Below the pieces are notes generated by a model. That model saw nothing but the letters and a program-made list of their open reading frames with translations. It did not search any database and was not told where the DNA came from. Both the position numbers and the translations under genes were made by a program. Shown piece by piece: positions 754 through 22,300 of a stretch of DNA of 26,622 bases. This DNA is from a virus: the IMG/VR virus record IMGVR_UViG_3300030116_007829, positions 1-26,622 of that record; one strand, given 5' to 3'. Position 1 is the stretch's first letter. Each line of letters begins with the position of its first letter.

Positions 754-3700
754 TAGGCAGTTGCAATTACTTTCAAACTGGTCAATCGAGGCACGAATGC
801 CTGATTAGTTGAAGTCATTAAGAATTTAATTCTAAATGATTTAAATGATGGTAATTCATTTGCTGTAAATGTATACTCTTTATATTCAAGTTCCTCTGGT
901 ATGAAACCAGTTGAGTCTGATTTAGGTATCAATGCATCTGATTTACCACTACTTTTATCACTGGTTTTTACTCTTCCATTTTCATCTAGATTATCATGAC
1001 CGGGGAAAGGTTCAAATATTGGTTCAGATCCTTCCGAGTCACTTATCGCGTAGAATGCTCTAATGTCAGTTGTTGCACTTACATGAGCATCAACAATAAT
1101 TTTCAATGAAGTTGCAGATGTTTCAAGAACATTTTCTTTTGAAACATAAGTTGCTGCTGATGGATCATCAAGTAAAGTGTCAACTCTATTATCTTCAGTA
1201 ATATCAGTAATTACATTATCAATTCTATTACTTGTCAGGATTGCACTCATTCTCTGGGTGTCGATTACAGGTGAAACTTGGTTATTCTCTGTAAATAGAT
1301 TTAACTCCATAGTGAAAGAGCGAGCTCCGGGCAGAACATTTAGAGTTGTTGTGTTTAATTCATTTACTCTAGAAGCGATACATCTTGGACTATCAAAATA
1401 ATTTATTTCATTTAAAGATATATCCTCAACTTCTTGAACTATAAATGGAACATCTGTTCCCTCACCAGAACCATCTTTGATACTGGTTCCACTCACTGTT
1501 GTTACATCTGCTAACACACCTGTTCCTGATACAGTCATATTTTGAATCATAGGTGTGATTAATTCAAACGGCATGTTTTGAGTAGCATGTATATCAAAAC
1601 CACCTGTTGATTTTGTTTGATTTATGAATAAAGCTGGATAACTTGAAACGGTAGATGTGCTTCTTCCTATTCCTTGTTCTCCCATATTTAATTTTATTTT
1701 ATAAGAGTCAAGCGTGATTGGATTAGATTCTGTCACTTCTCTGAAATCATGAGTTTTGTTAATTCTACGTAATGAAACTCCTCCTAATTCATATTTTTCA
1801 ACTATGTCACCTTTAACATAATTTTGAGCAGATGTTGAATCTTGTGCCCTTGTAATACCTGTTAATGATCCTTGACCGCTAAACGCTGACACCCCTGTGT
1901 ATTTTATTATTTCATTTTTAACTAAAATATATCCGGGGTTTGTTGCAGCGACTGCAACATTTTCAAATGATGTAAGAATACCTATGTTATCAACAGTGAT
2001 ACTTTCTGTAGAACTATTATTATAGGGCACTGACAACTTAGTAGGAGCTAAATCTGTTGATACATCAGATATTGTAACTAAGTTTTGTTCATGATGCATT
2101 CCATGGTTCTTGTGATTAACGGTGATATGTAAACCATCAGAAACGGAAATTACTGTGTCATCTGGTACAAATGCTCCAGAACCTCCACCATTACCACAAA
2201 TCGCACTACCAACTCCAGCTTTTGTTGATCCAATATCACCATCTTCTGTTCCGTACATAAGAGTTGTTCCAGCACCAGTTAAGAATGCACCCTGAACATT
2301 ATCTATAATTAATTCGCTAGTTGCAGCGATTGATACTACAGACAATCTTCCATTTATACCAAAATCAGTTGTAATTCCCAATAAGTCACCAACTTGATAT
2401 CCCTGACCACCAGAGGTAATTGTTGCACTTACGATTGATCCCTCATTGTAGACAACACTCGCTTTTGCATTTACACCACTTCCAGTTATCGTTGATAGAG
2501 CGACTCCTGCCACAGTGTGTCCTGCCTGTGCACGAGAGGCTACTGACGCATTTGCTGATGTGTAACCAAGTCCTGCTCTTGTAAGGGTAAGACTTCCTGA
2601 TGCAGCACCGGCCGTCCCCACCAGATTACCAGTGACATTTGATCCCTGTTGATATATTGTATTTCCTAGATTTGGATGAATACCAGCACCAAATGCAGAT
2701 GATAAACCAACTCTAACTTTTTTAGACTGAAGTTTAAGTGAGTCGGGCATCAATCTAGAAATTTGATAATTTCCTCTTGATAATATTGGGTTATACAATA
2801 AGACAGATCCCTCTTCGGCAAATGTTGCTCTATTTAAATTAAATTTCAAATCTTCCCACTGACTTGGTTCCCAAGTAGATGCATTTTGTGATTTAAATAA
2901 TGATCCTAATAATGGTTGATTTGAAACAAATTCGTCAGTTATTAAATCATTTTCACCAACTCTTGATATAAAGACTCTGTATTTAAGTGATGTGGAAAGA
3001 ACAACTAAAGCATATTCAGTTCCACCCTCAAGGTAAACTGGTGAGTCAAATGTAAATTTAGTAGCTACAGAACCATTAGTTGAAGTTGAAATTTCATCTG
3101 GATCTAAGTTAACCTCTGAAAAAGGAACCACTTCTGAAGTTGGTAAACCAAGTTTTACAGTTCTTAATTGAACTGTTACTGGTATCCCGTTATCATCAAC
3201 TCTTTCAAAGAACACTTCAGCACTTGTTAAGAAGATACCATTCTGTTCACTTACAAAGAATGATTGTGCTAACGGATCTCTTGCTCCACCTCTTCTTCCA
3301 CCTCTTCTTCCGCGTCTTCCGCGCATTCCGCGGCCTCTCTTATTTCTCTTTCTTGTTTTTCCTGAACTTCCTTTAGATGAACCTCCTCCTTTACTTCTTC
3401 CTCTGTTTCCTCTAGCACCTCTTCCTCTTACGTTCTTTTTCTTCTTCGTTGCTGCTTTTTTTTGTGCTTTTCTTTTTTTTGCTGCTGCCTTTGCTGCATT
3501 TTGCCTCTTCTTTCTTCTTTTTGCTCGCCTCTGATTAGTACCACCATACCTGTTTGCAACATTTCCGGGGCCTTTTTTCCTCTTAACTTTTCTTGGTTTT
3601 TCTCCAGTGGCTATAATTCTTTCAGTAGTGTCAACGCCAATTACGTCAGTTTCTTTTATTGTTCCGACTTCTTGAGATACAGATCTAGATTCTTCAGATC

Positions 3701-6700
3701 CTACAACAATTACCTTTGCATTTCTAACTGATACAACGTTCTCTTGAACTGTGTTAATAGAACCGCTTGCATTGTAAACATCGGCACCAGTGGTGGAGTG
3801 CTCTTCAGGATCATTTGCAGGACTATCTGTTAGAACGAAAGTTCTCTCTCCAGTTTGGAAAACATGACTATTATTAGTATTTGGATTGGGAATAAAGAAA
3901 CTTCCTTGCACTGTTGAAGCAAAATCAACAATAAATCTTAAATTTGTTATTTTTGCTTCAGCACCGGAAGTTCCACCTTTTAAAATCATTCCCTCTTGAA
4001 TATAACCGTAGAAATCACCTTGAGGTTGATTTGCAAGAGAAACTATATCAACGTTAATTAATGAAGATGTTGATGAATAAGAACTGGGTATGATGGCGGT
4101 TGTTCCTCCAGCATTTCCAAGTATCTGACCTGTTGCACCTCCATAAGTCTCTAAAGCTAATTCAGCTACTTGAGTATCAGTGTATGGATTACGTGTATAA
4201 ACTCGTGTTGGTGTGTCGTGTGGCCCCTCCTTGTGATTTGGAACTGCTGCTCTAAACTGAATGTATGGTCTTTCTGCACGTATGAGTTTATTTGATTTTA
4301 CTGTTCCAGTTACTGTTTCACCAACAGAAAATGTTCCCGAAATCATTTCTATTTCGATAAGTTTTGGAACGCAATACTTAGTGACATTAACTCCATCAAA
4401 GAAAGAGTAGATTCTTGCTTGTGGTTTAAATCCTTTTCCATCAAAAGATACATTTCTTGATCGAATGGTTGGTGTTACCTCAGTGCTAATAACTCTGTCA
4501 CCCAATGATGTTTTATCATATTGCTCGGTGATAAGTTGTCTTGAACCTTCTCTTGATTTTGTTCCTGTTTTAAAACGATCAGTAAATGTGTCTTGGAATG
4601 TGGTCGTAGTTGTTTTTTCTACATCTTTCCATCTTCTACCTGATGTTTTTCTACTCTTAGATCTTGATGTAACCTCTTTTCTTTTTCTTACTCTTGTGTT
4701 ACTTCGTGTTCCTGTCCAAACAGTTTGCCAACTACCCCAGAGAGTGCTTGTCATTCCAGTTTGTGGATCAAAACCACCAAACTTTCTTTCTGCTGCCGTT
4801 ACAGTCTCAGTAAAATTACCCTCAGTTTCAAACACATTAGGTTCCATCCTCACAGTGTTAATCCAAGTATCACTTGATGGAGATAATTTGACAGTTCCTT
4901 GCCAAAAATTAAGTAAGAAAGGAGTTACACTTTCAGTTCTTGTACCAAAAGGTTGTGATAAATATTGAATTTCATCATAATCTAATGTTATAATATCACC
5001 AGTTTTTCTTATGTTTATGCCTTCGGGTTGAGTGTTTGCTGAGTAAATATCATCACCTTCAACAGGGCCAACTTGTAAATCAATTGCATTTGTGTAGTGT
5101 GATGGTCTTAATTCTTTATTTGTTGAATCAATACTATTTTTTATTGTAATTTCATCCTCTTGTGGTTGAAAGGTTGTGAAATTATCTACAAAAAATCCTG
5201 ATTTAAATTTATTTAAACCATCTTCATCTGGCACGAATAAGTTTGCAGTGGCTGTTTCTAGTAACGTAAGAGAACTATAGTATTCTAGATTTCTTATTCT
5301 TGTTTCAAGATCACGTATATCTTCCATTCTATATCTTTTATGTTTCAAGAATGACATCCTTGCTTCTGAAACATCAAAAAGATATGGAGGAAGAGATACA
5401 GTTGCTAATTCAAGAGCATCATCAACTGCTGTTGGTGGTTCAGGTTGTTCTGCAGATGTACCCTCAACAACATTTATTTCACCATATTTTGTAAGATATA
5501 TCTTATCAATTCTACCTAAGAAAAAAGAAAAGTCTATCGTTAAAGTTTCATCAGATGCTAATATGTTTGCAGCTGAATTTCCTGATCCACTTAAAGTTCT
5601 ACCTAAAAATTCTAAAGGAGATCTGTTACTTTCAGCAACCACATAGTTATTAACTCTTGGACGAATATCAATTAAATCTGTATTACGATATTCATTTACT
5701 GTTTGGATATCCTCTTTAAAATCAAAATCATCATATGAATTTACAGTTGTTATATCTCCATCATCATCAGACTCAAAAAATGCATTAGAAAAATATATTT
5801 TTATCTTTTTGGAAGGAGCATCTACTCCATTTTTCCTTCTCACAAATCCATGATCATATAAAGTATCTCCCTGACCATTGTTAAATGTAAATTCTGCTGA
5901 TATATTTTTTGAAGATGCATCAACGGTATTTACTAAGGCTTGAATATCTGAACTCTCAAAAACTAAAGGTTCTCCATCAATAAATTCACTTTCATTTATT
6001 GGTATGAACGATATTTGAGAACTTGATAACTGTTCAGCAAAAACAGCGAGTGTGCCGGATGTTTTTCCTTCAAATACCTCTCCAATTAATAGATCATTTG
6101 TTGTAGCATCAACTGTGTTTATTGATGATAATGTCATTTTTGGAGCAGATGGATCACTCGTATCAGTTGATTCAAAAATACCTAATATGTCTAACACATC
6201 TGGAGTGTTTAAAGATATTTTTTCATCTTGCACACGAGTTCCAAATGGATAACTTCCAAAAGTCAATCCATCGTTCAAAGTTGTTTTACCTATTCCAGAT
6301 CCTGATAAATTTGATTTATCAACCAAAATCGAGTTTACTTGTTTCTTTCTTTTTACTTTATTTTTAGGTTTTACTTTACTCAGAGTTGCAATTAGTGTTG
6401 CTTCTTGATTGGCGGTTAAATCTGTGCCAATATTACCTATTTGTAAGGTTCCATTACCATTTGAAAAAGTAAATTTATCATTTGTAAGAGTTTCTATTGT
6501 TCCGTCTGCTCTAATTAAACTATATCTCTCATCATCAAATGGTAAAAATGTTTCATTATCACCAGCCTGAACGGCAGTTGATAATTCATCAGCTGATTGA
6601 CTTATTGTTACATTAAATGTTTTTCTTATTCTTAAAGAAGCATTATCCAAAGTGACACTAGATATAACGCTCTTTGATAATGGAGTATAAAGAGTGTTAT

Positions 6701-8765: not shown

Positions 8766-10316
8766 TTAGAACTGTAATATAACTTTGATATCTTCTTTTT
8801 GGTTAGAAGAACGTGTGATTGCTGGTCGATGATCAATATAAAGCATGTTTCCAGAGTATTTTTTAACTTCTGGATTAGATAAACCACTTGTAAATGTTTG
8901 ACCAAGATAATATGTTTTATTATTTATCGAAGTTGATAGACCATCAAAACTTGTGTTTATACCAAGAGAAATACTTCCTCCTGTTATATTTACACTACCT
9001 CCATCAGAGATATCTGCGGTAAATCTATCAGCGTTAAATCCATAAATTGGAGTAGTTGTTGCTGCACCAACAGTTGTGAAACCAGCCATGGTGCGATCCT
9101 GCCAGTATTTTAAAACGCCTGTCACCTGATCATAACTAATGACTTTTCCAATCGCAGTCACACCTGTTCCTGTTGTTTGAGTGATAATACTATCAGCAGT
9201 AAATGTAGCACTACTATAACCTGTTCCTGTCAAACGCATTGCATATGCTGCACTTGCCTTATCCAACGTAAGGATTGCCGATGACCCAAAAGCTTTTGGA
9301 TTTTCAATAATACCAATTCTCGCTATTTGATTACCAGTGATAAAATCTGGATTTTCTGGATCATTTTCAATTCTAGAATATGTCAAAGCGTTTGTTGCAC
9401 CTAACTCCTTATAGATGTCTGCACCATGACCACCAGTTGGAGGTATGATAACATCGAGTTGAGGATATGAATCTGGTCTTGGCAAACCACCAGCAACGAT
9501 GTCAACTGTTCCAAAGGTATAACCTGATCCTTGATTTGTAACATCAACTGATCCAATTTGTTGATCTGCGTTTACAACAACTGTGCACTCAGCACCACTT
9601 CCATCACCTTTGATTGGAACTCTGGTATAAGTTCTATTTGCAGTTCCTAAACCCACACCACGATTTTGAATAATAACAACTTTTATTCCACCATCAACTG
9701 CATTATTTCTTACAGCAGCATTATCCGACCCAGTTTCCCAGTCTGATGGCACTGGTACAAATTCTGTAGAATCGAATTTTACTAACTCTGAAGGTTTAAC
9801 CGTATAAAGATATTTCCAGACATATCCATCACCACTTGTTCCAGCAACTTTTGGTTCTAAATCAGTAAATGTTGGTTCATCTAATGATGGTTTTCCATCC
9901 GGTTGCTCTGGGCTTGTTCCATTTTTTAAACAAATATAAACTCTAAAATCAGAGTTTATAACATAAAAATTAGATGAATATAACGAAGTTCCTTGTGCAT
10001 GTTTAGGTGGATTTGTGATACTATAATCTGATCTATAATAGTCATATGTAGTTCCAGAAGTCCAAGAATTTTTTCTTACAACTTGTTTTACGTCAGTTGC
10101 ATTTATCTTTTTTAATGCGATTGCAGTATCCCAAAAATCATTATGATTCGTAAAATTGTCAATTGGTGATGGGGGATCATCATCCCAATCTGTTTGTATT
10201 GCTGTAGGATCTGTTAATCCAACAAAAGAATAATATGAATTAGTAGACGTTGAAACCCCTGCAACAAAATTCTTTGCATTTAATATTCTTATCTGATCAG
10301 TAATTATAGCTGCCAT
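8766..10316 (-). CDS. 8: Baseplate wedge protein gp8, enlarged, 516 aa
   Basis: Homologue of T4 gp8, a dimeric component of the baseplate wedge that contacts the gp6/gp7 core and gp10. Matching landmarks are GDGYVWKYLY near residues 162-171 (T4: GDGYVWEYLF) and the C-terminal SGNMLYIDHRP (T4: SGEMIYMENRP), followed by an IKVILQF end (T4: INILFTF). The start MAAIITDQIRILNAKNFVAG matches my recollection of cyanophage gp8 N-termini. T4 gp8 has 334 residues; the extra length lies mainly between about 190 and 470. That section carries GSGYTFG and GTGYSS motifs of the kind repeated in the two giant neighbours. The gene follows the giant with a 19-base gap and has no Shine-Dalgarno motif. A near-consensus late promoter (CATAAATA) lies just upstream. 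Confidence 0.93.
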   Translation of the reverse strand: MAAIITDQIRILNAKNFVAGVSTSTNSYYSFVGLTDPTAIQTDWDDDPPSPIDNFTNHNDFWDTAIALKKINATDVKQVVRKNSWTSGTTYDYYRSDYSITNPPKHAQGTSLYSSNFYVINSDFRVYICLKNGTSPEQPDGKPSLDEPTFTDLEPKVAGTSGDGYVWKYLYTVKPSELVKFDSTEFVPVPSDWETGSDNAAVRNNAVDGGIKVVIIQNRGVGLGTANRTYTRVPIKGDGSGAECTVVVNADQQIGSVDVTNQGSGYTFGTVDIVAGGLPRPDSYPQLDVIIPPTGGHGADIYKELGATNALTYSRIENDPENPDFITGNQIARIGIIENPKAFGSSAILTLDKASAAYAMRLTGTGYSSATFTADSIITQTTGTGVTAIGKVISYDQVTGVLKYWQDRTMAGFTTVGAATTTPIYGFNADRFTADISDGGSVNITGGSISLGINTSFDGLSTSINNKTYYLGQTFTSGLSNPEVKKYSGNMLYIDHRPAITRSSNQKEDIKVILQF

Positions 10317-10332
10317 TTGAGATTTTTTTATT

Positions 10333-10340
10333 TATTTATG
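10333..10340 (-). promoter_or_regulatory. Candidate late promoter upstream of gp8 (CATAAATA)
   Basis: The minus strand reads CATAAATA, one mismatch from the T4 late consensus TATAAATA. It overlaps the stop codon of the giant gene and lies 17 bases before the gp8 ATG, in an AT-rich gap. If used, it would give a very short leader and partly uncouple gp8 and downstream genes from the giant. The gap's base composition makes a chance match possible. Confidence 0.4.
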
Positions 10341-13300
10341 TGGAATAACTTTGAGTTTTTAAAAATGCCTCTCTCTTAAGGATTGGCCCTGTCAGTATGC
10401 CTGTTACACCATTAGACGTATTGACTGGATATGAACGCACAGTGTTTCGATCACTTAGTTGTAATCTACCATAACTATAATCGCCAAAGTACATACTATG
10501 ACCTAATCCTGATAGACCATTAAGACTGTTAACACTAACTACAACCTGAGTAACGACTGTAGATCCGAATCCCATTGCATCAGTGGTAACACCTAAAGTG
10601 CGATGAGCGACACGATAAACATTATCAATATAAGTTGTACCAACACCCACAGCACTGCCATCAGTATTTAGTGATGTTAATCCATGACCTACATTTGAAT
10701 TACTTACTATGAAGAAGTCACCAACGTTTAATCCAGATGTAACGATTCCACTATTACCACCTGAACCTGATGCTCCTTGTGTGATATCAGAATCTCTAAG
10801 GAAAGAATCGGAGGGAATCACTAAATCAAATACTAATCCAGTCACAGCAACTCCAGCTAATGAGGTTGTTCCAATACCTGTTATGATACCATGATCTCCA
10901 GAGTATGATATAACTGTATTTTTCTCTTCAAGCACAGGATCAGCACCGATAAGCACAACTGGTGGATTTGCATCACTGTATTCTGTTCCAGCGGTTGAAA
11001 CGCTTATGCTTGTCACTACACCATTTGTTATTGATGCAGTTGCTTCTGCACGAGCAGTGGTTCCAAGACCAACAGGATTTTGAATAGTTACAGTTGGAGC
11101 ACTATCGTAACCCCTACCACCAGTTGAAATCGCTACAGATGATATTGTTCCAGCAGCGGATACAATTGCGGTTGCGGCAGCCGCTAATCTTTCAACGTTA
11201 TTAATAATTACTATATTTTTTTGAAACTCAGTTGATATTATATTTTCATTTTTAGCGTTAAAGAATGGTCTAACACCAGTAACATATGCAATCGTTGTAC
11301 CTACACCCACTGTTTGAATAAAGTTAGTGGTTGGTGTAATATTACCTTTGTATAAATCTCTATCTTTATAGATTTTCTTACCCTCAACAATTTTGTCTTC
11401 AGTTTGTTTTGTCCATACTATTGGTCTGTATACTCTTGTATCTTCAAAAACACCCGGGCCATCATAATTATTTGTATCAACTGAATTAGATGAAGTAATT
11501 TCAAGAACACTTCTTGACTGCTCTTGCAAGAAATTTTCCTGATTAAGTTTATTATGATATCCAAGGGTAAGATCATCTCCGACTTTGACAGTTTCAATTA
11601 TTTCTCTATCAATAACATCTGCACCACCTGTTCCTCGATAGAATATTATCTTCAAGGTATCTTCAAACTTGGGTGCCTCATCAAAAGTGATATTACTACC
11701 GCCGAGGAATGTGTAAGACTCTCCGGGTATTTGTAGTATATCATTAATGAACACAAATAAAGTATCTTGAACTGTAACTGGTGATCCCGGTGCTGCTTGG
11801 ATTGATAATGACTCTCCACCAACAGTAAGTGGAAATGTTCTTCTTGATCCGTCAAATAGATTTTGGAAAGTATCTAATACCTGTAGTTGTCCCACAGACC
11901 AACCACTAAATTGATCGCTTGCTACATCATTAACTGTAATTCTAAATTCTTGATTATCGACAAAATTAGGTGTTGTTGGAATACCAGCTGATCCTGTTAA
12001 TGATAGAGTAAGTATTTCACCCACACCATATCCATATCCAGTATTAGTGATCTTAAAGTCCATTACAGTAGATCCCTGACTTACAACAACATCTGCTCTT
12101 GCCTCAGAACCAGCAAATCCCGGAGATGATGTGCTATGAATCAATTGCATGTCACTATATGACAGTGGATCATCAATAACAATCTTAGTTAATTGATCAA
12201 CTCTACCACCTCTTGCATAAAGGTGAGCTCTCGTTGATACACCACTATTGATTTCAAACTCAGTTGCACTTAGGACTCTTATTACTGATGCACCATCAAA
12301 CGCAACGTCTTGACCACTTGGTGAATTATTATTCGCTCGTGGTGCGATTATTGCTGGTTGTATAAATCCACCAGAAACATATTGTGTTGGAACAGTGGAT
12401 ATACCAGCATTAATGGTAAATTGAGTTGCACTCGCAACACCAACCACTGGTGTTCCATCAAATATTGGATCACCCTCTCTTGGATATTTGTGTTGAGTTG
12501 CGTAGTTATTCTTTGAACATGTAAATCTTAAGGACTCTTTCTTCAGTTTAATACTTCTTCCGGGTAATAATGTGTGTGCACCTATAGTAAGGACTAATAC
12601 ACCTGTATCAGCAGCGTAAGTAGCGTCAGACACGTCATAGAAGTTTAATTCAGACTTACCGACGTTTATTGTAATTGTATTAGTGGTGACAGCAGTGATT
12701 GCAGTTTGAATACCAGCTATTGGATCAGTTGGTCTTGGATATGGATGATCACTTCCATAATGATCCATTTCGCATGAGAAGACAATTGAACTCGTACCAA
12801 TACCAACAGTATCATTTGTAGACAATCCATGACTAGGTATTGATATCACAAACACTCCAGTGGACGCATTATAAGTTGCGTTTGTTGGTGTAAACTGAGT
12901 TCCAACACCTGTTGTAACCGCGTTTGCAAGTGCATATCTGAATGTATGAGAATAATCTCCACCTTGTATAACAGCACTACTTGCAGCACCTATGAATCTG
13001 TGAGTATATTGTTGACCTATAGGAGATTTAGATACGTCTAAGGTTATAGTTGTTGCTGTGGTAGATGCAACTGATATTGCAGTATCAAAGAAACGATCTC
13101 TATTCCTTGGATAGATATGATTTACTGTTGCACCAAGTCCACATGTAAACGCTAAACCAGTTAATATTACATCACTACTCTTACCAGTTGTTGATAAACC
13201 ATGAGCAGCAAGTGTGGTTACAGTCATGATACCGGTGGTATTATCATAGTTTGCACTTTGAACTCCGACAGCTGGGGCGTAGTCACAAGTAAATGCGATA

Positions 13301-16300
13301 CCAGATACAACCACCTCATTACCAACAGATAGATTATGTGCAAATGCAGTGGTTATAGTTGTTATACCAGTGATTGAAGAATAACCAACATTGTAGATAT
13401 CTCTTGGTTTATAGAAGAATTGTGGATTAGTAATATCAATGCTAGTTACATGACCATCAGTAACGTTAGCAAGACCAATAGTTGTGATTCCAGATTGATC
13501 AAATCCCTCAGTTTGTAAACCTACAGATACAGTTTGTATACCTGATCTGTAACCAGAACCTGTGTTACCTATACTTACACTATTGATTGTTCCTGCAAGT
13601 GATACTACGGCAGTTCCACCAGCACTCACTAATGGTTGATATCCAAATCCACTTGTTGATGCAACAGATATAATTACACCACCAACAGGTATAGATGCAG
13701 TATTAACATCCCTAGCAACTGAACTTGCAGCTCCGGTAAATGTTAATGTTGTTCCGGATCCAACAGTTGTTAACTCAAAATCACCGACTGATCCTGACAA
13801 TGGTGCTTGTAATACACCATTAATTAATACAAGTGCATTATTTGTTGCGATACCAGTTTTTTGTGCTTTGTCTACAGTAAGTGCATATTGTCTATTCTTA
13901 CCGTTAAAATCTGATGTTAAGTCATCATATAGATGGTTTGTAGAATAAGTTTCTGTGCTTCCATTTACAATGCCGGATCGAGTAAACACTCTTCCTTGGA
14001 AACTTGAAGAAGTCGTGATACCAACAAAGTCTCTTTCATCGGGAGGATTAGTTGTTGATCCTATTGGATTTTTTCCCGGAGGTGCCTCTGAGAATGTTAT
14101 CTCATTTTCAAGAATATTATAATTACCTCTTATTTTTTCAACTAATGATCCTGTTGGGAATCCAGCGATTGATGTTCCCAATCTTTGTCTTCTTACTTTA
14201 ATACCATTAGTTGTTCCAATACCAACAGATAATATCTTCATCACTTCACTCGTATTACCACTACTTACACGAATATTATCTGCACCGAAGAAAGATGTTA
14301 TTCCTGAGAAATGTATAACATCTTGTGACTTATCAATTGATCTGTCAAGTGTGGTCGTTACAGAGGTTCCAGCAATTGGTGATTGAAGGAAATTATCAAT
14401 AGCAACTAATACTCTTGTGTTTGCATTTTTTGCTGTAAATGAGTGTGATGTTCCAATACCAACATGTGTCAAATCTAAAGGTACAGCCACCTCTTTTAAT
14501 GCATCTTGAGCACTTCTTGCTAATTGAACTTTATCCTCTCCTTTCTTGATTATGAAGAGAGAAGATGGTAACAACGTGGTTGTAATTCCAAGAGCAGGAA
14601 ATTCAGTGGATGCAATTTGTATGGCAGATGATATGCCAGTTCTTCTATCTGTGTGTGCATATGACACCTCTTCACCAGACACGAAGAAATGATTTGGAAG
14701 TGTGATTGTATTTGCAGTTACATTTACAACCTCAGATGTTGATCCATCATATGGTTTCTTAAATATGGGATCGCCATTATGCTCTAGAGCAAATTTTGTT
14801 TTAATCGCTGATTGTGTTCCTTCATAATTTGCAAAGGAACTTTCTATTGAAGCGTTTTGCAAATCCTTGTTAGCTTCACCACCAACTTCTCTGGTTGCAC
14901 CTGATGGTAATAATTCAGTATTTTCTTCAACTCTCAATGAATTTAAGAAAGTTGTAATTGAAACACCAATACCTGCATTTGGTACAAAAGTAATTTCAGT
15001 AACATTGTCTGATGTTCTTCTGCCACTTATAGTTCCAAGACCAGCAAATGCTGTACCAACTTTAATATTACCAAACTCAGTAAGATAAACATTATCATCA
15101 TCCGTATAATCATCAATTATTATTACTTCTGCTAATTCGTAACTTCCATTTAATTTATCGGCAATCTGAACAATACAGTAAGCAGCATCGTATGCATCAC
15201 CATAACTTGCAATACCAACTGCCACAGGTGTAGATGATGATGATATTCCTGTGCTTTGTGCGGACATCTCAGCATATGCCATATCATATGATCCGATTCC
15301 GATGTACCCCTCAGTTGCAATACCAATTGCAGTTGCGTTGATAAATGCTGTTGTTAATCCAGCATCGGGTGTGTATCTTACAACAAGATCATTTCCAACC
15401 ATTAATGGGAAGAATGTTCCTATGTTGCCTGTCGATGAATAAGCATCTGAGGAGTGAATCGTTAATTGACCATACTCTTGGAATCCAACGTTTGTCCCAT
15501 CATGTATAACACTCACCTGATCATACTCAACACTTCCATCACTACCTTCAACACTTACAAATAGTTTAGCTGATCTATGTCCAGAGACTGTTGTTCCAAT
15601 ACCAGCGAGTGTGAACACAGTTCCTGCAGCACCACCAGCAACAGAAACACATGTTGACTGAATACTTACAAGTGATCCATTCAATCCCTCAGATGTAGAT
15701 GGATCAAAAGGTTCAGCGGGTATAGATGTGGTCGCTGTTGCAACATTTGTTGTCGATACACCTAATTGATTTGTGTCTATTTGATATGACCATAATACAA
15801 CGTTATAATCATTAATTGTAAATTTATGTGGGAAAAATCTTAAGACAGATTCAACACCATCAATAACAAAATCAAATGATCCTAGATCCAAAGTAGTTTC
15901 AACAGATCCATATTGATTCATCATTGTTAAACCACGACCTGTATCATGAAGAGTGTTAATAATCATTATCTGCCTTTCACCAGTAAATAATCTATCTTGA
16001 ATATAAGCAACAAAGAATTGAGCACGACCATCAGCTAACCTATTACGATAAACATCAGCAAAAGGTGTGGATCTTGCATTATTATTAAACAAGTTACTAA
16101 AGTCATCTATAGTAACCACTCTATTAGATACTGACTCAGAGTAATCTTTTAAAATACGTGATTTAAAATTAAATTCATCTGAGAAAGGTCTTTCAAATCC
16201 AGTTATGTAATTTTCTGACACTAAGTCAAAATCATGGAATGATTGTAGACTTTCTTTTCCTATTATATCAATAAGTATCGTTGTTCCATCTACAGGTCTA

Positions 16301-19300
16301 ACCACTAAATCATCAGATTTTTCTTTGGGAAGTTGAGATTCAAGTTGAAAATTTGCAAACTTTTTAAATCCAGCTGTGTGGTTCAAAGTATTAACTATGT
16401 CTTTCCATTCATCAAACTGCACTTTAGATTTAACTGAGTATGAGAATGCGTGATAATAATCATTATCGTGAACACGTTGTTGTTCATCATTTAAAAATCC
16501 AGTTCTTCTCTGCCATCCATTATTGAATATTGAAAAATAATCTAAATTATATTTTGATTCAAATTTTATTTTTTCCTTTATGATTCCTTTTGCACCAGTT
16601 GGTGCTGTGTATTCGTTACCACTAATTCTCTCTCCTCTAAATTTTGTCTGTTCAATTATTTGTCCAACATTAAATTCTCTGTTACTCTCAACAGTTATGT
16701 ATTTACTAGAATTATTCCAATCAGAAACTGTGCCTTTAACGATAACTCCAGAACTATCAATTGTTTGAATGTCATCACCAATTCTAAAATCAGTTGGTTG
16801 TAATTTTGGATCAAATTGTGGGAAATATTTTTCGGGAACTAACGTACCATTTGATTTTTCAGCGTTAAATACTCCGGGAAACTCAATATTTTTCTCTAAA
16901 AATTCAGACATATTATAAGTAACAACTCCAAAACCACCATAATTAGGAGTAACACTCGTTAAAGTAAACAAAGCGTAATCATAATCGGAAGAATTATATC
17001 CTGAAGCTGTTGATCCTACACCAACACTCACATTTTCAACAAGAACTTTGTCACCAACACTTAATGGGAATGGATCAATATATTCACCATCATTATTTAA
17101 AACACCACTAAACGCATTTTTTAAAGTAACACTTACCTCTTGTGTACTATTGTTATATGTAAAGTTTTTAGTTCTAATACCATTAGGGTTGCCTATCGGT
17201 AATATTGTTGGAGTTGTATTGTTTAGAGATTCAGTATTTTCTAAAATTTCTACGATTTGCTCTTCAGGGTTGTATCTTAGGTCAACATCTGTGATAGGTT
17301 TTTTAGTTACACCGTCTAAAACAACTAAACTTGGGTTTTGAATATATCCGGTTCCAAACGATGTTATTCCTATTGATCTAAATCCACTAAGTGGTGATAT
17401 TCTTAAAGTTTGTGGATATAAAGCCTCAGGTTTTAAAGTTTTATCACTTGGATAATCAAACCCAATATTTTCTATGGTTATTTTGGTTGGTTTACCTATC
17501 GTTGATGAGAACGTCTCAATGACTGCTCCACTTCCTAAATCAGATGTGATCGTTGTAATTCCGGGGATATTTTTGTAACCACCACCGGGTTCGGTAATTG
17601 TTATTTCATTAATCGATCCATAAGCACTTGTTGATATCGTAGAGTATTTAAGTGTTGATGTTGTAGAAGAGTAAGAATCAGATTCTGGTTTAAATGGAAG
17701 ATCATATTGAAATGTTGTTGATCCTGTTGATATGATATTAAATATTCCACTATAACCACTCTCTGCTGTTGTTATATTATTGTGATTAATAACATCTTCA
17801 TCAATGACTATATCTTTATTTTCAGTTAAATTATCAGATACGTTGATAGGTGATAATTTATAATAAAGATTTTTTGGAGTATTTTCATTTATCTTCAATG
17901 TTACTTTTGCATCACCTGTAACTCCTATTGTGCCAGTTCTTGAAACATCAAATGTTGCATTTACACCACTTGTTTCATAACTATTGCTGTAATTGCTATC
18001 TTTGAAAAAATCAAAATAAAATGCAGGATAAGAAGTAGCACTCACTCTATAAGATAAAGATGAATCACTTAAATCAAATATTGCGTTTGAATTTTTAACA
18101 AATACGAATGGTGGATTTATTGGTGATATCGTACCATTACCAGTAGATGTTATACCTATAAATTCTGGAAAATCTTGACTCGTTTGATACTCCGTCTCTA
18201 CAAATTTTAAGGTATCCTTATCAACAACATATACGTAATATTCCCTATTATTCTCAAGACCTATAGGATCATCTGATGTGTGTATTATTTTATCACCTGT
18301 GACTAACTTATGATCGTTTATGATAATCGAGTCTCTTATACCATCGTCAGACTTATTTGTTGTAATACCTGATGCGACGTAATCTAAAGGATTAAATACA
18401 GCTTTGCGACGAATTTTATTATATTTTACAGTAATCGTGGTATTAATACCCGGATTTACATCCATGTAAACTAAATCATTATTTGTCAACCCATGAGTTC
18501 CTGTTCCAACCACAGTGACGGCATCTCTTGTAATATTTCCTGATATAATATCTCTATTTTTTAATCTTAAACTATGAATAGATCCTATACCAACGTCCAA
18601 AAATTGTATCTCTTCAAAGATAGGTTGAGTGCCTGTTAATCCCAGACCAAATCTCACACCAGTAGATCCTACTCCAACTTTAACGGTTGATAGTCCAATT
18701 AAATTATTTGTTTTTCTAATAACAAATAAAGATGTTCCAATTCCAACTGTTGTATCTACTGTTGGAGTTGCACTAAAGAATTTAACTTTAGGAGCAGTCT
18801 CTGAACCATTAACACCGTTCAATTCATAATTAACAATATCACCAGTTTGTAAAGTATGATTAGGTAGAAATATAGATCCCCTTGGAATAATTCTTGTAGT
18901 AACACCTGCTCCGGGATTATTAATGGTAATAGTATTACCTATGCCAGTTTCATTGTCTGGGTTGGAATGTGATGTTCCGATTGAATCACTAGGATTAAAG
19001 TATATTTCTATATCCTCTCTAAGCGGAATTAAAGGAGCATTAATTGGTTGAAGATTATTGACAGTTGATCTAAATGAAAATACTCTTGGAATTTCTTGAA
19101 GTATAGTTGATTGAGTGTGTGAAATCCCTACAAATTCAACTGGTCTTAAAACTCTTAATCTTTTTGAAAAACCATCAACATCTAAGACTTTTATAATTTC
19201 AGATGATACTCCAACTCTAAATCTATCATTTGTTCTTATTTCAGATAGATCACCACTTACTGGGAAGAAAGTCACAATACCGGTTGCAGTTGCTGTGCCT

Positions 19301-22300
19301 ATACCTTGAGTTAGAATTAGTCTTGTTGATGATATTCCTATCTCTTGAGGGCCAACCAAATCCTGCACAGTTGATGATAGTCCACCGACATTTACTAATC
19401 TAGCATTTTCTAAATTTATAGAAGTTGACGCGATGCCAACTATTAGATCTTCAGACTTCCTATAAAATTTGATTCCTAATATGGACTCATTAGATGAACT
19501 TACATTTAATATTGATCCATTTATTCTTGTTACTTTTGCTCTTGCTTGAAAAGCACTATCAATATTTTGATCAAATACTAATTTATCATTGACTTTATAA
19601 TTTGTTCCACCAGAGGTTATGCCAACAGAATTAATTCCACCTTTAGTTACAAAATCTATATTTGAATCTTGATTTACAAACTTATAAGACTCTAGGAAAT
19701 AATCATAACCACTAAAATCTTTATTAACCGATAATGGATAAGTGTTTCTTACCACATTTGTTTTGTTAATGTCAAAATCCTCTTGATTTGATAATCTGCT
19801 AAAATTAAATTTATTTGGTTTTGAATTATATTTGTCGCCGATCAAATATGGAAATTTAGGTTTTTTAAAGTTTTTAAAAATACCATCTGAAGCTGCGGTA
19901 GAGTCAAAGGTAGAAAAATAAGCGTAAACTCCATTTGGATATTCGGGTGTTATACAGAATCTTCCGTTATTTTCATCAAGAACTGAATCATCATTTGATA
20001 CTTTATAAGTGAAATCTTCTACAAAAAATTCTGGAGGAAATGAAGTAAAAGGAGGTCGATTAATTTTTTTACTACTCTCATCTACATACCCAGATTTCAT
20101 TTGAACAATATCACCACCATCTCTTCTTGAATATCCATAAGGCCCGTATATTGGGTTGCCATCATATGCCCATCCTATGATTGGTGAGTGTTGATCACTA
20201 TTACTTTCAACTCCGTTTATAAGACTTAAATCTTTCTTACCAAATAAAACAGTTCCGTCAGCAGCAGATGCGTATGATATTCTTCTTAGATTTCTAGCAG
20301 GATAAACATATGAACATTGAAGTCCAAATAATCTATTTGTTGGTTCACTTATGAATACATCATCATCATTTAAATTATTTAAATTTTTTCTAAAATTATT
20401 AATTCTCCATTTTTGCACTGAGGGTTTAAAATCTGCTCCTTTTCCTGATGAGTCAACTCTCACTGTGGTTGTTGTAACACCGTAACCGATTCCACTACTT
20501 TCAATATTTACAGATGTTATATTTCCTAAAGAATTAATTACGGGGGTAAGTTTTGCATCCGATCCTATTCCTAAAACAACTAGATCTGGTGGTGAGTTAT
20601 AGTCAGTTCCACCATAACTAACACTAACATCAACAATTTTTCCTTTTGAAATAATCGGTGTGATAACTGCATCTCTTCCGCTATTAAGATCAATTTTTGG
20701 AACTCTATCAAAATTAACTATCTCAGATGCACCATATCCAACTCCACTTCTCGTCAATTGAAGTGAAGTTATCTCTCCTCTAAAAATAGGTTGTAATGAT
20801 GCTTCAAATGTATTACCTGATATTGAGGATAATCCAACTCTACCGATTACCTCTACTGATATTGGAGGATAATTAAATGTGTGAGTGCCAACTCCAGTAT
20901 TTCTAAATTCGTTAAATTGATTAGTGTTAATGTAAAAAGAACTAACAGTTGTTCCAACTCCAACAGCTGCTAATTTAAATTGATCTTTATTAACAACAGA
21001 AACATAATATTGTTTATCTGTGGACAAACCGTCAATTGATGTTCCATCAACTGAGTAATTTACAATTTCACCAGTTTTATAATCATGATTTGGTATATTT
21101 ACGATATTCAGAGAAGTGTTAATTCCTGTTGATTCACAAGATCTTTGTTTATTTTCGTAACCAGACCCACTGTCTAAAACGACAACTGAACTTACTATTG
21201 ATTTTCCGTTTAATGATTTAAAAGATTGTACTCCACTACCAAAAGCTGTAAACGATATCGTATTTACTCCAGCGATTGCTTCATCATAACTATTATGTAA
21301 TTGCACCGTATATTCTGATACAGAAGATACGTGGTAAATTGCTTCAGTAACCAACCCTACAATCGGAGTGCTCCCCAGAGGGTCATATACGACTCTCTCA
21401 CCCTGTCTAAATCGATGATAGGTAGTAAATCCTATGGAGGATGTATTTATTCCTGCTGTGTCTAATATTATGGTTCCAAGACCAACACCATCACCATTTA
21501 TTAATAATTCATGATTAATTTTATTAAGTTTCGCAACTGCTGTTGCACCTTTACCATTTCCTCCACTTATTTTTATAATTGGTTCTTCTACATAATCGAA
21601 ACCACTATCAATTATCCTTAAATCTTGTAAAGACCCTCTAACAGCAGCGATAGCTGTAGCTCCACTTCCAATAGAGTCATTAATTTCAATTCTTGGTGGA
21701 TTAATAACGTCATAGTTTTCACCATTTTTTACAACATTTATATCTTCCAAACGTCCGTGATATACAAATTCTTTAGACTTATAATTTAATACTTCAACTC
21801 CATCAACCAACACTCCAGTATATCCGGGACTTGTTGATACTTTTTCAGAGACGTTTATTGGTAGTGAAATCTCTCTAACCAACTTTTGTGGTTCAATAAC
21901 CTTGCCATTAAAATTATATTTTTCAATATCATTAAATGCAATTGTAACAGAATCAACTCCTCCATCGGGTTTTACTTTAGTAAACACACCCTCATAAATA
22001 TCTGATTGACTTTTTGCAAACTTTACTGTATTTGCATCGATTCTTTTTATATAATATAAACCTTCAGCAAATAATCTACTAATAATATATTCTTGTCTTA
22101 TTGTATTACCCTCAGAGTCAATTGTGCTTACTTGACCTTTTTGAGGGGTATAATATACTGCATCACCTGTAAAGAAATTATGATCAACTTGATCTGATAT
22201 TTTAATATCTTCATCATCTTTGTCATAAGTCCCACCAAAAGTTAATTTTTGAGTTTTTGGGTTTAACTTACTAACACCACTAAAAGGTAATGATGAAGAT

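Follow-up and report, generated by a model that had tools for sequence, protein, structure and literature searches.

The virus record IMGVR_UViG_3300030116_007829, a 26.6-kb (26,622 nt) stretch analysed here in full as the window, encodes a baseplate-family protein with a 107-residue polycationic tract directly in front of a conserved DPLAQSF sequence. Comparison with homologous loci indicates that the tract is a real element, uncommon among the measured relatives and not isolated, which appears to be a charge-selected linker at a joint that hosts mobile intein-like domains in relatives. Our leading reading, a tentative one, is that the tract forms a polycationic tether, disordered for the most part, at a baseplate joint that tolerates insertions; it would be exposed and would adhere electrostatically to host glycans. 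The coordinates of the features are collected in Table 1.

Table 1 Features of the window discussed in the text.
Feature	Residues	Position (nt)	Strand	Basis or remark
Polycationic tract	1721-1827	3279..3599	-	49 K/R, 0 D/E
Conserved basic end	1806-1827	3279..3344	-	21/22 residues common with L001
Long predicted beta strand before the tract	1682-1714	3618..3716	-	AF2 model strand 303-335, block pLDDT 49-75, low to moderate confidence
Lys/Ala-rich predicted single helix	1742-1774	3438..3536	-	AF2 model 363-395
Arg/Gly-rich half, predicted disordered	1775-1827	3279..3437	-	AF2 pLDDT, composition
DPLAQSF beta-sandwich domain	1828-1992	2784..3278	-	Homologous to the phi812 baseplate DUF4815 chain
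DUF4815 (VrlC-like, phrog_358) baseplate protein, 2668 aa		753..8759	-	ORF, Pfam, PHROG and PDB matches
gp8-like baseplate wedge protein, adjoining the DUF4815 gene		8766..10316	-	PF09215, 44.7 bits versus cut-off 25
Second, milder basic stretch	1351-1382	4614..4709	-	14 K/R, 3 D/E; composition

The count of basic and acidic residues given in an earlier note on this DNA is exact (26 Arg, 23 Lys, no Asp or Glu, from nt 3599 to 3279), and the Lys/Ala-rich and Arg/Gly-rich halves described there agree with the compositions of residues 1721-1774 (17 Lys, 9 Arg and 10 Ala) and 1775-1827 (17 Arg, 17 Gly and 6 Lys); the tract also stops where it was said to stop, the next residues being DPLAQSF. No acid-free run of the protein is longer, and the best 107-residue segment elsewhere in it reaches net +15; from the composition outside the tract, at least 49 Lys/Arg among 107 residues would be expected with a probability of 4e-25. 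When the whole protein, with the tract, was shuffled 2000 times, the top 107-residue net charge was +20 versus the observed +49, and six further ORFs tested in the window gave net +8 at most (a 74-aa ORF taken whole). Cleavage in silico with trypsin yields just three peptides of at least six residues from the tract (GPGNVANR, YGGTNQR and GGGSSK), and Asp-N or Glu-C would not cut it. The tract is real and no artefact of frame or strand, as the reading frame stays open over 2668 aa and has a homologue in L001, the nearest relative, and the plus-strand ORFs across the tract (3140-3376 and 3462-3731) are rich in Phe, Leu and Cys, as expected from the antisense of Lys/Arg codons. A BLAST search of the tract against phage records gave no match at E ≤1, a search weakened by its low-complexity filter.

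The minus strand of the window displays a T4-like baseplate gene order, with genes for gp25-like, gp6-like, 4600-aa wedge-type, gp8-like and 2668-aa DUF4815 proteins. The last of these matches PF16075 with 193.1 bits (curated cut-off 30), and thus qualifies as a DUF4815 protein in Pfam, and matches phrog_358 over residues 1-2668. Its best Pfam stretch comprises residues 1069-1303 and the other two lie nearer the N-terminus, so that the tract belongs to the DUF4815 polypeptide, as noted earlier, and lies downstream of the Pfam domain. The DUF4815 chain of phage phi812 (PDB 9euf) was matched with an E value of 7e-47 in collinear phmmer blocks at residues 6-91, 187-392, 1070-1305, 1420-1458 (weak) and 1827-1992, of which the last corresponds to residues 791-954 of the phi812 chain and begins at DPLAQSF. 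Homology in sequence and predicted fold to a chain placed in a solved baseplate supports the assignment to a baseplate family, which agrees with the earlier description as a virion protein; a virion-protein mark was found in the records of relatives only, namely Synechococcus phage S-SCSM1 and TmpG of Kayvirus A3R.

The phi812 chain (9euf, 9eui and 9euj) and A3R TmpG share the N-terminal domains and the DPLAQSF sandwich in collinear order with the protein of the window, but are 1152 aa long compared to 2668 aa, and TmpG, a recorded virion component, has no basic linker before DPLAQSF (best 40-aa net charge +7). Homology extends over the full length in the DUF4815/VrlC-type proteins of Kyanoviridae (phrog_358), such as that of Synechococcus phage SynMITS9220M01 (QJT70098, 52.5% identity), whose gene is likewise placed after a baseplate wedge gene, whereas their linker before DPLAQSF is short and not basic, unlike that of the window. 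The nearest named phages are marine cyanophages at no more than 52.5% identity, and these sequence relationships indicate a virus of bacteria related to marine cyanophages. A search of bacterial genomes for a host returned relatives in 2 of 141 stretches, both in metagenome-assembled records, and was uninformative on the host.

Structural modelling of residues 1380-1995 in AF2 with 56 relatives gave a model of modest confidence (mean pLDDT 67, pTM 0.49). The predicted Lys/Ala-rich helix shows block pLDDT values of 66, 85 and 79, with a drop to 48 where it ends, and sequence of this composition may lead AF2 to over-predict helix. The disorder prediction proposed in the earlier note yields, on this model, pLDDT values below 50 just ahead of the helix and through the Arg/Gly half (model 395-448), the Lys/Ala part being modelled as helical. 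Because the modelled beta-sandwich and the phi812 match both begin at DPLAQSF, the tract is likely to be a linker insertion at the start of a domain; the domain boundary suspected earlier is thus predicted by the model, in which the sandwich directly follows the tract. By fold, the sandwich is closest to 9eui_Q (Z 16.1, rmsd 3.0 Å, 144 aligned residues, 33% identity), followed well below by a PBCV-1 capsid chain (Z 10.1), the lectin-like part of Cwp84 (9.6), a cyanophage A4 capsid chain (9.3) and then PHR and CBM sandwiches. That the DPLAQSF domain has the fold class of lectin-like and CBM sandwiches lends weak support to a surface role, against which it must be said that a shared sandwich fold alone shows no function.

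The joint before DPLAQSF is hypervariable. From 122 relatives with both flanks we obtained 100 distinct linkers with a median length of 40 aa and a median net charge of +1, a census that takes in loci fetched by an Arg-containing pattern and leaves out the window, whose own linker between the same flanks has 146 aa and net +45. Elsewhere the same joint is occupied by Pro-Arg repeats, poly-Pro, sequence judged by eye to be coiled-coil-like or acidic, Gly/Arg-rich sequence, or an intein-like domain. Two linkers at this joint, those of L178 and L195, are long (189 and 208 aa) and strongly acidic (net -16 and -19); a Pfam scan of the L195 linker returned no match, and the linkers of L116, L137 and L166 end in a similar way.

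A polycationic pre-DPLAQ linker was defined as one in which some 40-residue segment of the 150 residues preceding DPLAQ reaches at least net +13; the virus studied here, at +22, has one. Two samples of relatives were chosen by the domain that follows the linker: sample A, the best 80 of 595 confirmed relatives of the window, and sample B, the best 80 of 333 confirmed relatives of L241. Strongly basic linkers make up 7 of the 61 distinct linkers in sample A, all within the window's own clade, and 2 of the 65 in sample B, one of these two being the query L241, itself a basic-linker locus; the other 54 and 63 are not strongly basic. These counts leave out 6 of the 80 rows of sample A (L008, L009, L022, L052, L056 and L077) and 4 of the 80 of sample B (L289, L315, L327 and L334), among which L008 and L022 look basic but are incomplete and L009 lies on a contig whose intein-like (Hint) domain and basic linker belong to L217. 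The earlier note had described DUF4815 relatives as lacking such a tract, which is true of most of those measured, although a minority does carry one; a similar tract in most homologues would have made it an ordinary family feature, a reading that the census in these two capped samples does not support. The picture of a single odd insert has to be given up in favour of a hypervariable linker in which basic versions arise repeatedly.

A deliberately biased search for RGGR in front of DPLAQ returned 34 stretches and 31 new loci, of which 26 were measurable and 25 distinct; 20 were strongly basic and are spread over several divergent groups, and RGGR directly before DPLAQ ends many basic linkers. 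The basic-linker relatives found are nearly all metagenome contigs, and the window's own clade yielded no isolate. In a first set of 11 annotated phage-collection records (nine isolates and two single-cell contigs), nine linkers were measurable and two basic; in a later set of ten, nine linkers were obtained, none above net +8, and S-PM2 yielded none. The only basic linkers among the named phages measured are those of S-SCSM1 and Sf-FS3 (net +13). S-SCSM1 carries a 114-aa acid-free basic run with 32 Lys/Arg at the same joint, built of PR/PN/PQ repeats with no Gly and in a different lineage from the window, and its DUF4815 protein with this Pro-Arg linker is the one marked as a virion protein; 45 virion proteins of this phage have been reported from mass spectrometry (PMC9602691). 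A literature search at title level, with most subscription journals outside its scope, recognised no paper on basic linkers or bacterial intein-like (BIL) domains in DUF4815 proteins.

In a tree built from 80 representatives, nine changes of the basic label (carried by 13 rows) are required, at least seven by starred branches, a count that is a rough guide because the tree is one search with unsettled bootstrap, includes loci retrieved with basic patterns, retains basic rows at finer differences than the others (identity thresholds of 85% and 72%, respectively), splits some sister pairs by its identity cut-off, and lumps Pro-Arg and other basic linkers with the Lys/Arg/Gly ones. With this reservation, the tree suggests that basic linkers have been gained and lost repeatedly at the pre-DPLAQSF joint. 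A similarity of tract-end DNA between lineages was considered as proof of transfer and not accepted, because the sequence is of low complexity: the L265-L001 comparison gave z 7.4 in a shuffle test, and 10 of 300 shuffles reached the observed similarity once the last 22 residues were left out (the rows of L218 in this test are meaningless, its 110-residue tail being mostly Hint). An apparent clustering of the second, milder basic stretch with the tract (6 versus 58 rows) was discounted, as it rests on one clade.

Comparison with L001 suggests that charge is kept while sequence changes. The tract is identical at 44 of 107 residues (41%) with 11 gap columns, compared to 82-87% identity in the flanks, and the L001 linker is still net +35. 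None of the tract codons is acidic, although 51 of the 107 are one transition away from Asp or Glu; at the 63 differing positions acidic residues account for 1 of 126, compared to 96 of 818 elsewhere in the protein (P 2.6e-6, an approximate value, as the alignment is of low complexity and positions were treated as independent). Within the last 22 residues, two synonymous and one nonsynonymous codon differences were observed. In the L001 tract two Cys residues stand 11 residues apart (NGVCKANDRKSFNKCKRP); the tract of the window has none.

This charge pattern speaks against pure drift, in which a functionless low-complexity sequence would have expanded neutrally by slipped replication of purine-rich codons, an account that we regard as improbable. 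It would suit the short tandem repeats (7-15 bp) found in the DNA of the tract, of which only one scores above the default threshold and most score low, and which suggest slippage and hint at how length may vary; many different low-complexity linkers occupy the joint, and the charges in sample B are continuous (+9, +11, +12, +15 and +17, with L284, L285, L287 and L250 just below the threshold), so that a clean two-class split is not general. It fits poorly with the avoidance of acidic residues, the conserved 22-residue end, the repeated appearance of the same composition and the charge gap in sample A, where no linker falls between +9 and +14. Slippage of purine-rich codons may nevertheless vary the sequence while selection would keep acidic residues out. 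Since similar stretches were gained at the same joint, some of them holding an intein-like domain, the tract is probably a functional element and not junk.

The intein-like domain, of 142 aa, interrupts the basic linker in L003, L005, L006, L214 and L215, and also in L217, with two copies in tandem in L005. The first five loci form the sister group of the window and L001, the seven together being supported at 95/96. Pfam Vint exceeded its cut-off in the four loci of the first scan, and the ataxin-type AXH scored about as well, below its cut-off in L003, L004 and L006 and above it in L005 (two copies). A sequence search of the PDB returned a bacterial intein-like domain, then an intein and then ataxin-1, and fold comparison (VIA) with the AF2 model of the relatives' domain (pLDDT 94) favours BIL/intein over AXH, with Z values of 20.1 to BIL2 of Tetrahymena, 17.5 to the gp41-1 intein and 17.2 to a BIL of C. 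thermocellum. All 8 aligned copies have Cys1, TxxH and the terminal His-Asn, and Lys occupies position +1 in each of the 11 copies observed in DUF4815 linkers. The relatives' domains, for example those of L214 and L218, share with type-A BILs (PDB 2lwy and 6y75) the Hint fold, Cys1, TxxH, the C-terminal His-Asn and the absence of Cys, Ser or Thr at +1. Type-A BILs are reported to be able to splice, with cleavage predominating (PMC4031507). The insert of the relatives therefore fits a type-A BIL with putative splicing or cleavage activity. No homing endonuclease was found in the BIL copies seen.

Basic residues flank both sides in every copy with both flanks visible. The Hint domains of L218 and L219 are 88% and 87% identical to that of L214, whereas their DPLAQ domains are only 44-45% identical to that of L214; this disparity argues that the module moved horizontally to the same joint in a distant phage. 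On the first tree the Hint label needs three changes. A C-terminal part of a Hint lies at another, long-branched place of the tree in L220, its upstream flank being outside the contig, and L221 is truncated where its contig stops. A second, weaker Hint (29% identity, with Ser replacing Thr in TxxH and an intein-splicing match below cut-off) was found in L263, which is related to L218 and has long RGG repeats.

As one rival to an adhesive tether, the joint could be mainly a platform for a mobile type-A BIL, the basic linker being chiefly its flank, the BIL splicing itself out or cutting, and the window having lost or never received it. The occurrence of the domain inside basic linkers of the five-locus sister group, L218 and L219, and more weakly L263, the basic residues on both sides, the signs of horizontal movement and the match to the BIL fold all point this way; we still consider it rather unlikely, as a Pfam search of window residues 1380-1995 gave no Hint match at E 0.05, and both lineages include basic linkers without Hint (the window, L001, L165 and L007 in one and L244 in the other, likewise L241, L236 and others), from which it appears that the basic linker is not just an intein flank and that Hint is optional. 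A broader proposal, doubtful as well but less so, is that in baseplate proteins of cyanophage-like viruses the pre-DPLAQSF joint serves as a landing site, with polycationic linkers and mobile type-A BILs coming and going together, that during assembly or infection the BIL would cut or splice the protein inside its basic linker, and that the tract of the window represents the BIL-free state. If so, some contractile phages would process a baseplate protein by intein chemistry, with the invariable Lys at +1 as a possible twist.

Hint-like domains were also observed outside this family. Distant relatives of the domain (27-34% identity) occur in L268 (7001-7459), L272 (1611-2072), L275 (3435-3890) and similar loci within L269-L281, at the very C-terminus of other phage proteins with PFTY/PSIG-type repeats, after a Gly run and with about 5-15 residues following, the +1 residue not being Lys. 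The Ruegeria phages DSS3-P1, vB_RpoS-V7, V11 and V18 have a 25% identical Hint-like match in annotated tail tape measure proteins, indicating that phage structural proteins beyond the DUF4815 family also contain such domains.

Returning to the tether, a Lys/Ala-rich helix and an Arg/Gly-rich tail are predicted to fill the hypervariable linker just before the sandwich. The tether would be exposed on the baseplate and engage in multivalent electrostatic contacts during adsorption, its most likely partners being anionic glycans on the host envelope. We favour these glycans because baseplate features that are hypervariable and have been gained repeatedly often face towards the host. At the ionic strength of seawater electrostatic binding is weakened, which counts against adhesion.

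The charge might instead act inside the virion, with the tract clamping acidic faces of neighbouring baseplate proteins together. The rest of the DUF4815 protein is net -107 without the tract and the neighbouring 4600-aa wedge-type protein net -120, which favours such a clamp; we judge it unlikely because the majority of measured relatives have short ordinary linkers and presumably assemble, from which it also appears that the tract is not needed for assembly in general. Contact with nucleic acid in the manner of a histone tail, for example in RNA-dependent assembly or with genome DNA on ejection, would find some basis in the ten RG dipeptides and the predicted Lys/Ala helix, but the phi812 relatives are parts of the baseplate, away from packaged DNA, and only two RGG triplets occur in the 107 residues, leaving this account very improbable. 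The rivals thus rank as BIL platform, clamp, drift and nucleic-acid contact, in that order.

Whichever reading holds, the comparisons suggest that a specific joint in a widespread baseplate family is a site of repeated, charge-selected change, and that an intein-like module moves between phages into it, without a homing endonuclease in the observed copies. With the adhesive tether as the preferred reading, this joint is a testable place to seek electrostatic adsorption in cyanophage-like viruses. Two further features of the window were noted on the minus strand: the 4600-aa wedge-type protein (10336-24138) contains a YHYH domain (PF14240) at residues 1312-1415, and downstream of the DUF4815 gene a 141-aa protein (114-539) matches phrog_3304 (L-shaped tail fibre assembly).
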